A DNA stretch of 36,200 bases from Hyunsoonleella pacifica. GTDB taxonomy: Bacteria > Bacteroidota > Bacteroidia > Flavobacteriales > Flavobacteriaceae. The notes below the pieces were generated by a model. The model searched no databases. It was not told where the DNA came from and saw only the letters and a list, made by a program, of their open reading frames with translations. The translations under genes were made by a program, and so were the position numbers. The stretch is from assembly GCF_004310335.1 (NCBI RefSeq), contig NZ_SIRS01000006.1, forward strand, positions 1 through 36,200, written 5' to 3'. Of this stretch, positions 18,291 through 21,433 are shown one piece after another. The number at the start of each line of letters is the position of its first letter. Positions within the stretch are counted from its first letter, which is position 1.

Positions 18291-18388
18291 ATAAGACTTT
18301 AGTAATTAGTATTTAGACGATAGAAATTCGATGTGAATATAGAATTTGAGTTCTAACAACTAAAGACTAACAACTAAAAACTATTAAA
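18291..18388 (+). repeat. Heptad-armed inverted-repeat spacer element, copy 1 (rpsE-rpmD)
   Basis: The whole 98-nt spacer. The left part reads TTTAGTAATTAGTATTTAGAC with TTAG every 7 nt; the right part reads CTAACAACTAAAGACTAACA and continues as CTAAAAACTA, again a 7-nt period. The two arms are imperfect reverse complements and flank a centre with GAAATTC/GAATTT pairing. It is one of four related spacers in the cluster. The element starts right after one stop codon and ends just before the next start, so its right arm is the translation-initiation region of rpmD. Confidence 0.75.
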
Positions 18389-18568
18389 ATGGGAAAAATT
18401 AAAGTAACAAAGGTTAAAAGCGCTATCAATCGTACGCAAAGACAAAAAAGAACTTTAGAAGCTTTAGGTCTTAAAAGGATTGGACAAGTAAAAGAGCATG
18501 AGGCTACACCAAACATTCTTGGTATGGTAGCAAAAGTTTCACATTTAGTTTCTGTAGAAGAAGCTTAA
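18389..18568 (+). CDS. rpmD: 50S ribosomal protein uL30
   Basis: Complete small gene of 59 residues, equal to the E. coli length: MGKIKVTKVKSAINRTQ, then RTLEALGLKRIGQVKEHEATPNILGMVAKVSHLVSVEEA. The order is the standard rpsE-rpmD-rplO, with the rplO ATG 15 nt downstream. uL30 is a peripheral 23S-binding protein that many bacteria lack. Its start sits next to the heptad-armed spacer element, with the context ATTAAAATG. Confidence 0.97.
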   Translation: MGKIKVTKVKSAINRTQRQKRTLEALGLKRIGQVKEHEATPNILGMVAKVSHLVSVEEA

Positions 18569-18583
18569 AATATACACTAAAAA

Positions 18584-19036
18584 ATGAATTTAAGTAACTT
18601 ACAACCGGCAAAAGGATCGGTAAAAACACAAGGCAAGCGAGTAGGTCGCGGACAAGGTTCAGGTAAAGGTGGTACGGCAACACGTGGTCACAAAGGAGCA
18701 AAATCACGTTCAGGATATTCTAAGAAATTAGGATTTGAAGGTGGTCAAATGCCATTACAGAGGCGTGTACCTAAGTTTGGTTTTACAAATATTAACCGCG
18801 TAGAGTATCAAGCCATAAACTTAGATACATTACAAGCGTTAGTAGATGATAAGAAAGTAAAAGATACAGTAGATTTCGAAACACTATTTTCAAATAGATT
18901 AGCTGGGAAAAATGATCTAGTTAAAATATTAGGAAGAGGAGAAATAAAAGCCAAATTAAAAGTATCAGCTCATAAGTTTTCTGCTTCAGCTAAAGCAGCA
19001 ATCGAAGCTGCAGGTGGAGAGGCGATAACTTTATAA
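18584..19036 (+). CDS. rplO: 50S ribosomal protein uL15
   Basis: Complete, 150 residues. uL15 has a long Gly/Arg/Lys-rich N-terminal arm that threads into 23S rRNA; here it is GRGQGSGKGGTATRGHKGAKSRSG (about residues 23-46). GFEGGQMPLQRRVPKFGF follows, and the C-terminal domain ends KLKVSAHKFSASAKAAIEAAGG. It lies between rpmD and secY (14 nt) as usual. Confidence 0.98.
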   Translation: MNLSNLQPAKGSVKTQGKRVGRGQGSGKGGTATRGHKGAKSRSGYSKKLGFEGGQMPLQRRVPKFGFTNINRVEYQAINLDTLQALVDDKKVKDTVDFETLFSNRLAGKNDLVKILGRGEIKAKLKVSAHKFSASAKAAIEAAGGEAITL

Positions 19037-19050
19037 GATCACATTAACGT

Positions 19051-20403
19051 ATGAAATTTATAGAATCAATAAAAAATGTTTGGAAAATTGAAGAACTAAG
19101 AAACAGAATCATAGTTACCTTGAGTCTGTTATTGGTTTATCGATTTGGTGCCCAAGTTGTATTACCAGGTATTGACGCATCACAATTGGGTGGTTTAGCG
19201 GAAAGTACTGATGGAGGTTTATTAGGATTACTTAACGCCTTTACAGGTGGAGCTTTTGCTAATGCTTCGGTTTTTGCACTTGGTATTATGCCTTACATTT
19301 CGGCTTCTATTGTTGTACAGTTAATGGGTATTGCTATTCCTTATTTACAAAAGCTGCAAAAGGAAGGCGCTAGTGGACAAAAGAAAATCACACAAATTAC
19401 GCGGTGGTTAACTATAGCTATTTGTTTGTTACAAGCACCAGGATATTTAGCTAGTTTACCAGCATTAGGAATTCCTCAATCAGCATTCTTATTAGGAACA
19501 GGTGGTTTATTTTATTTCTCTTCAGTAATCATTTTGGTAACTGGATGTATTTTTGCCATGTGGTTAGGGGAGAAGATTACAGATAAAGGTATTGGTAATG
19601 GTATTTCGCTTTTAATTATGGTAGGAATCATTGCTACTTTACCACAGTCATTTGTTCAAGAATATGCTGCTAGAGTAACAGAATCTAATGGTGGTTTAAT
19701 TATGATATTAATTGAACTTGTAGTTTGGTTTGTTATCATATTAGCTTCAATTATGTTAGTAATGGCAGTTAGAAAAATTGCTGTGCAATATGCAAGACGT
19801 ACCGCTTCTGGCGGATATGAAAAAGCTGCAGCTGGTGGATCTAGACAATATATTCCTTTAAAGTTGAATGCATCTGGTGTAATGCCAATTATTTTTGCAC
19901 AAGCGATTATGTTTGTTCCTGGATTAATTGGTAGATCTTCTTTTATGAAAGATACTGCAGCAGGTTTGTGGATGCAAACAAATTTTTCTGACATCTTTGG
20001 GTTTTGGTATAATTTGATTTTCGCAATATTGATTATAATATTTACATATTTCTATACTGCGATTACGGTACCTACTAATAAAATGGCAGATGATTTAAAA
20101 CGTAGTGGTGGTTTTATTCCAGGTATTCGTCCAGGCTCTGAAACTTCGGAATATCTTGATAAAATAATGTCTCAAATTACCTTACCTGGTTCTATATTTT
20201 TAGCATTAATAGCAATATTTCCTGCATTTATTGTTAAACTAATGAACGTTACTCAAGGTTGGGCATTGTTTTTTGGAGGAACATCATTATTAATTATGGT
20301 TGGAGTTGCAATTGACACTATGCAGCAAATAAATTCTTATTTGTTGAATAGACACTATGATGGCTTGATGAAAACAGGTAAAAACAGAAAAGCAGTAGCA
20401 TAA
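19051..20403 (+). CDS. secY: Protein translocase channel subunit SecY
   Basis: Complete, 450 residues (E. coli 443). SecY is the membrane channel of the SecYEG translocon, moving proteins across or into the inner membrane. It has about ten hydrophobic segments, an N-terminus with WKIEELRNRIIVTLSLLLVYRFGAQVVLPGID, the plug region after GLLGLLNAFTGGAFANASVFALGIMPYISASI, GEKITDKGIGNGISLLIMVGI (about residues 173-193), and the cytosolic loop NKMADDLKRSGGFIPGIRPG. In many Bacteroidota and Firmicutes map (and adk) follow secY; here infA follows directly after a 107-nt spacer element. Confidence 0.99.
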   Translation: MKFIESIKNVWKIEELRNRIIVTLSLLLVYRFGAQVVLPGIDASQLGGLAESTDGGLLGLLNAFTGGAFANASVFALGIMPYISASIVVQLMGIAIPYLQKLQKEGASGQKKITQITRWLTIAICLLQAPGYLASLPALGIPQSAFLLGTGGLFYFSSVIILVTGCIFAMWLGEKITDKGIGNGISLLIMVGIIATLPQSFVQEYAARVTESNGGLIMILIELVVWFVIILASIMLVMAVRKIAVQYARRTASGGYEKAAAGGSRQYIPLKLNASGVMPIIFAQAIMFVPGLIGRSSFMKDTAAGLWMQTNFSDIFGFWYNLIFAILIIIFTYFYTAITVPTNKMADDLKRSGGFIPGIRPGSETSEYLDKIMSQITLPGSIFLALIAIFPAFIVKLMNVTQGWALFFGGTSLLIMVGVAIDTMQQINSYLLNRHYDGLMKTGKNRKAVA

Positions 20404-20510
20404 ATTTAGACGATAGTAGTTAGTCATTAGATATTAGAAGATAAAACTCAAATAACATTTTAAAGTAATATAGTTCTAACAACTAAAGACTAAGAACTTA
20501 AAACTAGAAT
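20404..20510 (+). repeat. Heptad-armed inverted-repeat spacer element, copy 2 (secY-infA)
   Basis: A 107-nt spacer. The left arm includes TTAGTCATTAGATATTAGAA; the reverse complement of the right arm reads TTAGTCTTTAGTTGTTAGAA, matching at 17 of 20 positions by eye. The right arm contains TCTAACAACTAAAGACTAA, shared with copy 1. The centre is an unrelated AT-rich stretch of about 35 nt, so the arms, not the loop, are what is conserved between copies 1 and 2. Confidence 0.75.
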
Positions 20511-20726
20511 ATGGCAAAACAAGCAGCAATAGAACAAGATGGAACAATTATAGAGGCATTATCAAATGCAATGTTTCGTGTTGAATTAGAAAATGGTCAC
20601 ATTGTGACAGCACATATTTCTGGTAAGATGCGTATGCACTATATAAAATTATTACCAGGAGACAAAGTAAAATTAGAAATGAGTCCTTATGATTTAACTA
20701 AGGCTCGTATAACTTATAGATACTAA
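20511..20726 (+). CDS. infA: Translation initiation factor IF-1
   Basis: Complete, 71 residues (E. coli 72). IF-1 is a single S1-like OB fold that occupies the 30S A site during initiation. [75 protein letters not shown] features are all present, notably the LENGH, SGKMR and LPGDKV motifs. It is 4 nt before rpmJ, the usual pairing. Its start is preceded by the right arm of spacer element copy 2. Confidence 0.98.
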
Positions 20727-20730
20727 TACG

Positions 20731-20847
20731 ATGAAAGTAAGAGCATCAGTTAAAAAGAGAAGCGCAGATTGTAAGATTGTGCGTAGAAAAGGTAGACTTT
20801 ACGTGATAAACAAAAAGAATCCTAGATTTAAACAAAGACAAGGTTAA
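20731..20847 (+). CDS. rpmJ: 50S ribosomal protein bL36, zinc-independent type
   Basis: Complete small gene of 38 residues: [19 protein letters not shown], then [19 protein letters not shown]. Zinc-binding bL36 uses Cys11, Cys14, Cys27 and His33; here these are Ser11, Cys14, Asn27 and Phe33, so the zinc site is gone and this is the C- form. bL36 is the smallest 50S protein and assembles late. It sits in the standard infA-rpmJ-rpsM order. Confidence 0.97.
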
Positions 20848-20953
20848 TTTAGACAATGAGTCATTAGTCTTTAGACGTTAGATGAATCTGTTCGAAATCG
20901 AAAGGTTTAGGATTCTAACAACTAAAAACTAACTACTAGAAACTAAAAACAAT
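20848..20953 (+). repeat. Heptad-armed inverted-repeat spacer element, copy 3 (rpmJ-rpsM)
   Basis: A 106-nt spacer. The left arm (GTCATTAGTCTTTAGACG, 7-nt period) and right arm (TCTAACAACTAAAAACTAAC) are imperfect reverse complements, with GAATC and GATTC closing the centre. The centre contains CTGTTCGAAATCGAAAGG. A 55-nt block, 20872-20926, is repeated in copy 4 with a single mismatch, so copies 3 and 4 are recent duplicates or are being kept alike. Confidence 0.8.
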
Positions 20954-21328
20954 ATGGCAAGAATTGCAGGTGTAGATATACCAAAACAAAAAAGAGGCGC
21001 TATTTCTTTAACCTATATCTACGGAGTAGGTAAAAGTAGAGCAAAAGAAATTTTAGCTACAGCTAAAGTTGACGAAAACACTAAAGTACAAGATTGGACA
21101 GATGATGAAATCGGAGCTATCCGTGAGGCTGTTGGAACTTATACCATTGAAGGTGAGTTACGTTCTGAAACACAATTAAACATTAAACGTTTAATGGATA
21201 TAGGTTGTTACAGAGGTATTCGTCATAGAGCAGGTCTTCCTTTAAGAGGGCAACGTACTAAAAACAACTCTAGAACTAGAAAAGGTAGAAGAAAAACTGT
21301 TGCTAACAAGAAAAAAGCAACTAAATAA
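20954..21328 (+). CDS. rpsM: 30S ribosomal protein uS13
   Basis: Complete, 124 residues. uS13 forms intersubunit bridges in the 30S head. [15 protein letters not shown] is the family start, then [16 protein letters not shown] (about residues 19-34) and the basic C-terminus [33 protein letters not shown]. It lies between two near-identical spacer elements of 106 and 105 nt, a very unusual setting for a gene in this cluster. Confidence 0.99.
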
Positions 21329-21433
21329 TAATTAAAGGCATTAGTCATTAGTGTATAGACGTTAGATGAATCTGTTCGAAATCGAGAGGTTTAGGATTCT
21401 AACAACTAAAGCTAACAACTAGAACAAAACAAT
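21329..21433 (+). repeat. Heptad-armed inverted-repeat spacer element, copy 4 (rpsM-rpsK)
   Basis: A 105-nt spacer. Positions 21356-21410 match 20872-20926 of copy 3 with one A/G difference in 55 nt. The left arm keeps CATTAGTCATTAGTG; the right arm reads CTAACAACTAAAGCTAACA, which lacks two bases seen in copy 1 (AAAGACTAAC), breaking the 7-nt period once. The same closing pair GAATC/GATTC is present. Confidence 0.8.

Follow-up and report, generated by a model that had tools for sequence, protein, structure and literature searches.

Heptad-armed hairpin inserts in the spc/alpha operon spacers of Hyunsoonleella pacifica as candidate gene-less members of an IVS-like class of insertion elements

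Four spacers of the spc/alpha run of ribosomal protein genes of Hyunsoonleella pacifica, rpsE-rpmD, secY-infA, rpmJ-rpsM and rpsM-rpsK (hereafter copies 1 to 4), are each filled by an insert of about 100 nucleotides (nt), with a left arm of TTAG-like words and a right arm of CTAA-like words; they are located in the window that we have analysed, a stretch of 36,200 nt (C31:1-36200) from a genome of 4.13 Mb in 34 contigs. We favour, as the reasonably probable reading, that Bacteroidota possess a class of intercistronic insertion elements, similar to the intervening sequences (IVSs) of ribosomal RNA (rRNA), to which the four inserts belong as gene-less forms and whose other members bear a gene of the family PF05635 (23S_rRNA_IVP), referred to here as the S23/IVP gene. 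The inserts share a layout, a predicted fold, a period of 7 nt and the sense direction; in relatives they are discretely present or absent, unrelated members occupy one and the same site, and gene-bearing and gene-less forms occur at the same operon sites.

The sections consulted of a study on the S23/IVP protein and the rRNA IVSs (PMC4990558) report no agreed function or mode of spreading. Here, inverted arms enclose an IVP gene at numerous operon sites, the naturally occurring alternatives being gene-less hairpins and empty spacers, and in one genus a single site is empty, filled by heptads only, or filled by either of two different IVP alleles; these natural alternatives make the spread of the elements, the binding partners of the IVP protein and the effects on polycistronic RNA that is translated independently of Shine-Dalgarno (SD) sequences testable. 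The favoured reading would also explain why essential operons in a large phylum contain unusually long spacers. Our literature search, conducted mostly on titles and the beginnings of abstracts and with subscription journals and preprints outside its scope, found no description of operon spacers that contain IVP genes flanked by periodic arms.

The four inserts of the window

The coordinates and lengths of the four spacers (Table 1), as well as the placement of each insert between a stop codon and the next start codon, agree with what a sequence-only reading of the window had stated, and the words of both arms recur approximately every 7 nt in all four, as that reading had also claimed. In copy 1, left-arm words are located at about 18299, 18306, 18313 and 18320, and right-arm CTAA words at 18353, 18360, 18367 and 18374; the left-arm words of copy 2 follow every 7 nt from about 20406 and its CTAA words start at 20476, those of copy 3 start at 20915, and one right-arm step of copy 4 is 6 nt. 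The stem-loop that had been predicted for each spacer is upheld by computed folding, with all four copies folding better than dinucleotide shuffles (z = -3.41, -2.75, -4.06 and -2.97 for copies 1 to 4). The gene names of the rpsE to rpsK run are taken from the sequence-only reading and from gene order.

The pattern of the four spacers is real and non-random. Four consecutive CTAANNN words with at most two mismatches occur at 91 places of the genome, whereas the reversed control gives 16; many of the 91 places are overlapping registers, amounting to about 33 separate clusters by our own count. A detector that combines folding (z < -1.5) with self-matching at a lag of 7 nt (lag-7 z > 2), the thresholds of which were fixed before its pass rate on known inserts was measured, passes 18 of the 19 described inserts; three of the four window spacers pass, and the sole miss is rpsM-rpsK, which fails on lag-7 (z 1.5). 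Random spacers of 40-160 nt were sampled from 14 evenly spaced 20 kb stretches (280 kb) of this genome; of these 56 (39 co-directional, 10 convergent and 7 divergent), none passes the detector, and the co-directional ones give a lag-7 self-match of 0.32.

That the neighbouring spacers are short holds from rplR to rpsK, where the remaining ones measure 4-15 nt, but not further downstream, where two long spacers of another kind follow, rpsK-rpsD (178 nt) and rpsD-rpoA (100 nt). An Rfam S4-Flavobacteria leader is located in the former, before rpsD (21937-21975, 44.9 bits). The latter (22602-22701) measures about 20 or about 95 nt in relatives and displays no lag-7 peak (0.33); it may be a promoter region or an insert of a different type.

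Filled and empty sites in relatives

SecY was located in all 12 genus genomes and, together with 80 named loci that were kept from 586 matches, 92 loci were compared; the closest named match of the window SecY is Jejuia pallidilutea (97%), which points to the Flavobacteriaceae, in a scan that may omit records very near the window. The survey of spacer lengths, periods and folds, which leaves out L055, exact duplicates and spacers longer than 250 nt, has revealed two groups of lengths: 2-13 or 81-114 nt at rpsE-rpmD (two at 55), up to 14 or 64-114 nt at secY-infA (one at 53), 2-5 or 95-131 nt at rpmJ-rpsM, and 6-15 or 95-137 nt at rpsM-rpsK (one at 47), with infA-rpmJ being broader (1-25 or 40-141 nt). 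The spacers rplR-rpsE, rpmD-rplO and rplO-secY are shorter than 40 nt in 91 of 91 loci. Simple spacer drift, which the sequence-only reading had named as a refutation, does not fit these two groups of lengths.

The filled spacers of the five spc/alpha sites carry the period of the window inserts, with lag-7 self-matches of 0.51, 0.42, 0.41, 0.44 and 0.46, against 0.21-0.37 at other lags; 10 of 13, 13 of 22, 26 of 37, 16 of 22 and 23 of 45 of them fold with z < -2. One site can hold unrelated inserts: rpsE-rpmD has TTAG/CTAA arms in the window and other words in L047 and L050, and secY-infA is filled in L072, L075, L076, L078 and L080 by a hairpin with a GGCAAGGTATTTGC-like centre. Hairpins with this centre form a second class, found at secY-infA of Winogradskyella, Psychroserpens, Lacinutrix and others.

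On trees of the 92 loci, the minimum number of filled/empty changes is 12-13 at secY-infA (shuffled about 20), 20-22 at infA-rpmJ (about 30) and 10 at rpmJ-rpsM (about 20). Two arm subtypes occur at rpsM-rpsK, A (31) and B (13), which require 10-12 changes, against 11.3-11.4 for shuffled labels, two "other" inserts having been left out of the count. Recombination of the flanking genes was considered as the cause of the switching between A and B and was not seen: the tree of rpsM and rpsK themselves gives 10 changes, against 11.3 shuffled. The rpsM-rpsK insert seems to have been replaced without its neighbours.

Gene-bearing elements and their operon sites

The pattern match at C30:384979 pointed to a PF05635 gene, whose two neighbours are co-directional and were recognised by eye as the genes of efflux membrane-fusion and pump proteins. 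The PF05635 gene is flanked by TAGTAATTAGTCTTTAGA on the left and CTAACAACTAAAGACTA on the right; the 17-mer CTAACAACTAAAGACTA is common to this right arm, to copies 1 and 2, and to a gene-less hairpin on contig C29. The encoded protein matches PDB 2gsc, XCC0516 (E 2.8e-15), which is the Xanthomonas S23 protein in the consulted part of PMC4990558. There are four IVP genes in this genome, 2-14 in each of the 12 genus genomes, and at least one in 61 of 80 phylum genomes.

The arms of these genes were compared at 29 of 31 genus loci (L180 and L182 dropped) and at 22 of 29 phylum loci (L298, L300, L311 and L314 have no central gene call, and L287, L297 and L303 were dropped for a wrong one). The lag-7 self-match is 0.40 upstream and 0.42 downstream at the genus loci and 0.37 and 0.38 at the phylum loci, against 0.26 inside the open reading frame (ORF). 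An arm pairs with its own partner better than with swapped ones (15.9 vs 9.2 in the genus, 13.4 vs 8.3 in the phylum), and the own arm is in the top tenth of its row at 18 of 29 and 15 of 22 loci, respectively. Long ORFs of the same strand, the only strand inspected, lie on both sides of the IVP gene at 11 of 12 genus loci examined, and 19 of the 22 phylum loci are co-directional with both neighbours.

The inherited IVP genes at hemE and moaC are under purifying selection, with ratios of nonsynonymous to synonymous divergence (dN/dS) of 0.04-0.14 in six pairs; the ratios are rough, dS being high (0.6-1.9). The IVP genes at the efflux site of the window's genome (G000) and of G009 are far apart (dN 0.66), which suggests that they are separate arrivals. 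In the part consulted of PMC5524665, a table places a "four helix bundle protein" between the genes of guanylate kinase and a nicotinate(-nucleotide) adenylyltransferase in two strains of Flavobacterium columnare and classes it as a phage element.

The comparison of single sites across the 12 genus genomes, conducted by eye, has shown that both forms alternate with each other and with empty spacers. The moaE-moaC site is empty in two genomes (3 and 4 nt), holds IVP subtype 1 in six (with internal stops in G001 and G008) and IVP subtype 2, with other arms, in three, and carries gene-less heptads in one (G002). At hemD-hemE, the IVP gene is present in five genomes (broken in G005 and G006), a 71-nt gene-less hairpin in one (fold z -4.67), another gene in three and other spacers in three; at ffh-folD, the genome of the window has a gene-less hairpin of 80 nt, and G003, G006 and G007 have IVP elements. 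As a side observation, the other gene at hemD-hemE (L195, L197 and L203) is small, with about 100 codons, and the words resembling AAAGGCAGGAATTC/GAAGGCAGGAATC in the spacers of L199 (G007) and L202 (G002) may represent a further dispersed repeat.

Further hairpins in the genome

Beyond the window, 26 further pattern loci comprise 6 within ORFs, 10 gene-less hairpins in co-directional spacers, and 10 others (plain arrays, two loci on the rRNA contig, and unclear cases). With L028 (C29:161394) included, there are 11 gene-less hairpins outside the window, all of which pass the detector. Their neighbours, named by NCBIfam with L262 left out, are FadB-like/thiolase, RecF with an unnamed partner, AtpA-AtpG, AtpH(delta)-AtpA, CysD-CysN, RpoB-RpoC, HisH-HisA, LeuC-LeuD, siroheme synthase/reductase and Ffh-FolD, and the hairpins may favour operons with a high level of transcription. 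In all 15 gene-less hairpins (4 in the window and 11 outside), the G+T content is higher in the upstream than in the downstream half.

Heptads also occur as plain arrays without a clear second arm (C29:29956-30057, C29:98400-98487 and C1:772689-772741), which is one of the observations that would fit a different origin: replication slippage may produce 7-nt repeats in tolerant spacers, template switching the inverted arm, and short-tract recombination the spread, with the IVP genes being passengers. The words vary between sites, as slippage would have it, and an earlier survey, as cited in the consulted part of PMC4679880, is reported to have found that, among long simple repeats, heptamers are the most abundant in the majority of its genomes, with slippage as the proposed origin. 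We regard this origin as improbable, given that lag-7 arms flank IVP genes on both sides across the phylum sample, gene-less and IVP forms share sites, the sense direction is kept in 15 of 15 hairpins, and an exact 17-mer is common to dispersed inserts. The first of the arrays (L005, about 1494-1593) is a near-perfect CTAACAA tandem that abuts a start codon, has no opposite arm, and resembles the TAACTGA arrays of Beggiatoaceae.

Contig C2 carries the rRNA operon, with tRNA-Ile and tRNA-Ala, and similar hairpins are located in three of its spacers (Table 1). The 16S and 23S matches span their models end to end, and the hairpins sit in the spacers. When left untrimmed (106 nt), the 23S-5S stretch does not fold better than its shuffles (z -0.20), and the lag-7 peak is absent from the tRNA-Ile-tRNA-Ala spacer (0.30). 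Because the rRNA spacers are untranslated, these hairpins show that translation is unnecessary for hairpin presence.

Table 1. Coordinates of the inserts, of the neighbouring genes and of hairpins elsewhere in the genome (positions of rows without a contig are those of the window).
Feature	Location	Length	Strand	Remarks
Copy 1, rpsE-rpmD spacer insert	18291..18388	98 nt	+	no class I core
Copy 2, secY-infA spacer insert	20404..20510	107 nt	+	no class I core
Copy 3, rpmJ-rpsM spacer insert	20848..20953	106 nt	+	class I
Copy 4, rpsM-rpsK spacer insert	21329..21433	105 nt	+	class I
rpsE	17766..18290		+	5' of copy 1
rpmD	18389..18568		+	3' of copy 1
secY	19051..20403		+	5' of copy 2
infA	20511..20726		+	3' of copy 2
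rpmJ	20731..20847		+	5' of copy 3
rpsM	20954..21328		+	between copies 3 and 4
rpsK	21434..21817		+	3' of copy 4
Gene-less heptad hairpins L253, L255, L267	G000 C23 and C31			atpA-atpG, rpoB-rpoC, atpH-atpA
rRNA-operon hairpin, 16S-tRNA-Ile spacer	L316 (G000:C2) 2085-2162			z -3.23, lag-7 0.52
rRNA-operon hairpin, tRNA-Ala-23S spacer	G000:C2 2464-2600			z -4.54; lag-7 0.48 over spacer
rRNA-operon hairpin, 23S-5S spacer	G000:C2 5542-5612			trimmed 69 nt: z -2.09, lag-7 0.48

The class I core and the ends of the inserts

The sequence-only reading had treated the four inserts as one family with a variable centre. Their heptad-arm layout is indeed common and the centres of copies 1 and 2 vary, but the inserts fall into two classes: copies 3 and 4 are sisters (89% identity over 82 nt) and contain a conserved, site-bound core, GAATCTGTTYGAAAT..GTTTAGGATTC (20884-20915 and 21368-21399), which is absent from copies 1 and 2 and which we refer to as the class I core. 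The core pattern is present in 60 of 199 family genomes, against 0 for the reversed control. All 66 annotated class I spacers precede rpsM (22) or rpsK (44), and the start of rpsM or rpsK also comes next, as judged by eye, after a further 33 cores in 30 fetched loci; the claim on position covers the cores whose position was read. An alignment of 60 of the 65 distinct class I spacers (5 that are longer or from distant loci were dropped) shows a nearly invariant core and a stem that is kept, with mostly one-sided changes and two-sided covariation at just 1 of 22 pairs. The class I inserts at these two genes look settled, and perhaps they have been adopted as cis-acting RNA.

Features at the ends of the inserts could ease their residence next to genes. 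A 7-nt word that contains one stop codon closes every frame within three repeats; counted over 35 nt at the insert ends, three-frame stops were found in 17 of 26, 26 of 44, 33 of 74, 40 of 44 and 76 of 90 cases at the five sites, against 6.0, 10.5, 18.9, 10.1 and 19.1 expected from mononucleotide shuffles. The arms of IVP elements are less enriched than the ribosomal protein inserts (19 of 58 vs 9.4, and 12 of 44 vs 5.8). The last 13 nt of the inserts have an A content of 0.63-0.66, against 0.40-0.51 at empty sites, where this stretch can extend into the upstream gene. At four sites, pairing of the start region does not exceed that of empty spacers, and at the fifth the two are equal. The three-frame stops and the A-rich 3' end would fit an uncoupling of translation, the other role that the sequence-only reading had offered. 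In Bacteroidetes, which have no SD sequences, initiation is tuned by structure and by upstream nucleotides, including A at -3 (PMC6847099, in the part consulted); an arm that is rich in A and keeps the start accessible is therefore expected to be harmless or helpful.

These stops, A-rich ends and open start regions, as well as the conserved, site-bound class I core, would also be expected of a cis-regulatory RNA made by the host for translation, mRNA cutting or mRNA stability, with class I tied to rpsM/rpsK and the likeness to the IVP arms being a convergence; several hosts of the hairpins, furthermore, encode complexes of set stoichiometry (ATP synthase, RNA polymerase, LeuCD and CysDN). We consider this explanation rather unlikely. 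Each insert is missing from many relatives, one site is filled by unrelated sequences, and the arm subtype is independent of the tree; like hairpins occur in untranslated rRNA spacers, the same design surrounds IVP genes, and neither the scarce covariation of class I nor Rfam speaks for a regulatory RNA, with a search of the four copies against Rfam 15 giving no match at the gathering score and none credible up to E 5.

Proposed mechanism

In the reading of the inserts as IVS-like elements, a full element would consist of two inverted arms, whose words have a period of about 7 nt and differ between elements, flanking the four-helix S23/IVP gene, and the gene-less form would retain the arms and a short centre. 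Both forms would settle between a stop codon and the next start codon, in the sense direction, giving rise to a stem-loop in the polycistronic RNA. The elements probably move as units, and the IVP protein or its RNA may be involved. In coding operons, the inserts would be tolerated since the stem spares the start codon, blocks three frames and provides an A-rich, SD-less start context. In rRNA spacers, they may be tolerated because the stem is excisable, as rRNA IVSs are excised by RNase III (PMC4990558, sections consulted); by this analogy, we infer that RNase III could cut the present inserts as well. Since all inserts are transcribed through and three of them are untranslated, what they have in common is a stem within a spacer that is co-transcribed.

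A wider and more tentative reading, which we regard as possible but doubtful, is that these are phylum-wide mobile RNA elements of operon spacers, cousins of the rRNA IVSs, on whose gene-less hairpins the IVP would act in trans, as a transposase does on miniature inverted-repeat transposable elements (MITEs). Elements with word-variable heptad arms would settle between co-transcribed units in the sense direction, with rRNA, ribosomal protein, RNA polymerase and ATP synthase operons among those occupied in this genome, and the design of the arms, namely the period of 7 nt and the stops in all frames, would be what is recognised and tolerated.

The sequence-only reading had proposed that a small mobile palindromic element has settled in essential operons; the filled and empty sites, the differing inserts, the switching on trees and the gene-bearing forms speak for it, and movement is a probable reading. 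Several observations weigh against mobile, IVP-related elements. At rpsM-rpsK, filling is mostly inherited, because it requires 6-8 changes against about 31 for shuffled states, and at rpsE-rpmD it is as scattered as chance, because the 11-12 changes lie in the shuffled range (mean about 13). The class I core occurs at most twice per genome, its genome-wide dispersal was not found in the 199 family genomes, and its restriction to rpsM and rpsK speaks for retention and not for free mobility. No IVP gene was seen in the spc/alpha run of the 92 loci (the largest of the examined spacers that are listed has 231 nt), and the gene-less heptads at moaE-moaC of G002 have no clear second arm. The own arm is the best partner at just 11 of 29 genus and 10 of 22 phylum IVP loci (15 of 29 genus loci with longer flanks), own-arm pairing being only a tendency. 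No conserved end sequence was found, as the arm words differ, and no target-site duplication was noticed in the comparison, by eye, of empty and filled sites.

The search for a mobilising enzyme identified none. A resident reverse transcriptase was considered, as the IVP protein resembles Avd, the accessory protein of diversity-generating retroelements, and none was found in this genome at E 1e-3. Mobilisation by a Y1 transposase, as in repetitive extragenic palindromes (REP) and their associated transposases (RAYT), would suit palindromes that are short and dispersed, and one PF01797 match exists in the genome (26.5 bits, cut-off 23); the 3.2 kb around this gene contain none of the four heptad-arm patterns tried, and the arms are long, periodic and word-variable, which makes this route highly improbable.

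Comparison with known systems

The resemblance of PF05635 to Avd is noted in the part consulted of PMC10053308; the difference is the lack of a reverse transcriptase described above. REP/RAYT and MITE palindromes are likewise short non-coding inverted repeats that are possibly mobilised in trans, but in the present inserts no conserved ends were found, no clear target-site duplication was noticed by eye, and no matching transposase was found nearby. Ribosomal protein leaders of Rfam, such as S4-Flavobacteria, occur in the same operon, and the class I core resembles them in being conserved and tied to rpsM/rpsK; they differ in that the four copies have no Rfam match and most inserts are not conserved in sequence.

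A likeness is also offered by the TAACTGA heptamers of Beggiatoaceae, Cyanobacteria and five Bacteroidetes (MacGregor 2015; PMC4679880, in the part consulted), which are 7 nt long, in the sense direction, intergenic and located before start codons, ribosomal protein operons included, and for which translational regulation has been proposed. These repeats consist of one fixed word, almost only in direct orientation (one inverted case), with no IVP gene, unlike the CTAANNN/TTAGNNN words in inverted arms found here; the terms "23S rRNA" and "S23" are absent from the main text of that paper.

Gene-less IVSs of about 100 nt exist, for example in Salmonella. The IVSs of 23S and 16S rRNA, as characterised in the sections consulted of PMC4990558, have terminal inverted repeats that form a stem, as do the present inserts; an S23/IVP gene in their gene-bearing form, to which corresponds the PF05635 gene found here between such arms, although not in the four copies; and a sporadic distribution. 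They differ in being located inside rRNA genes, whereas the four copies lie in mRNA spacers between operon genes, and the arms described here are word-variable and periodic at 7 nt. The element is IVS-like in design, but it is not an IVS by location, which is a defining feature.

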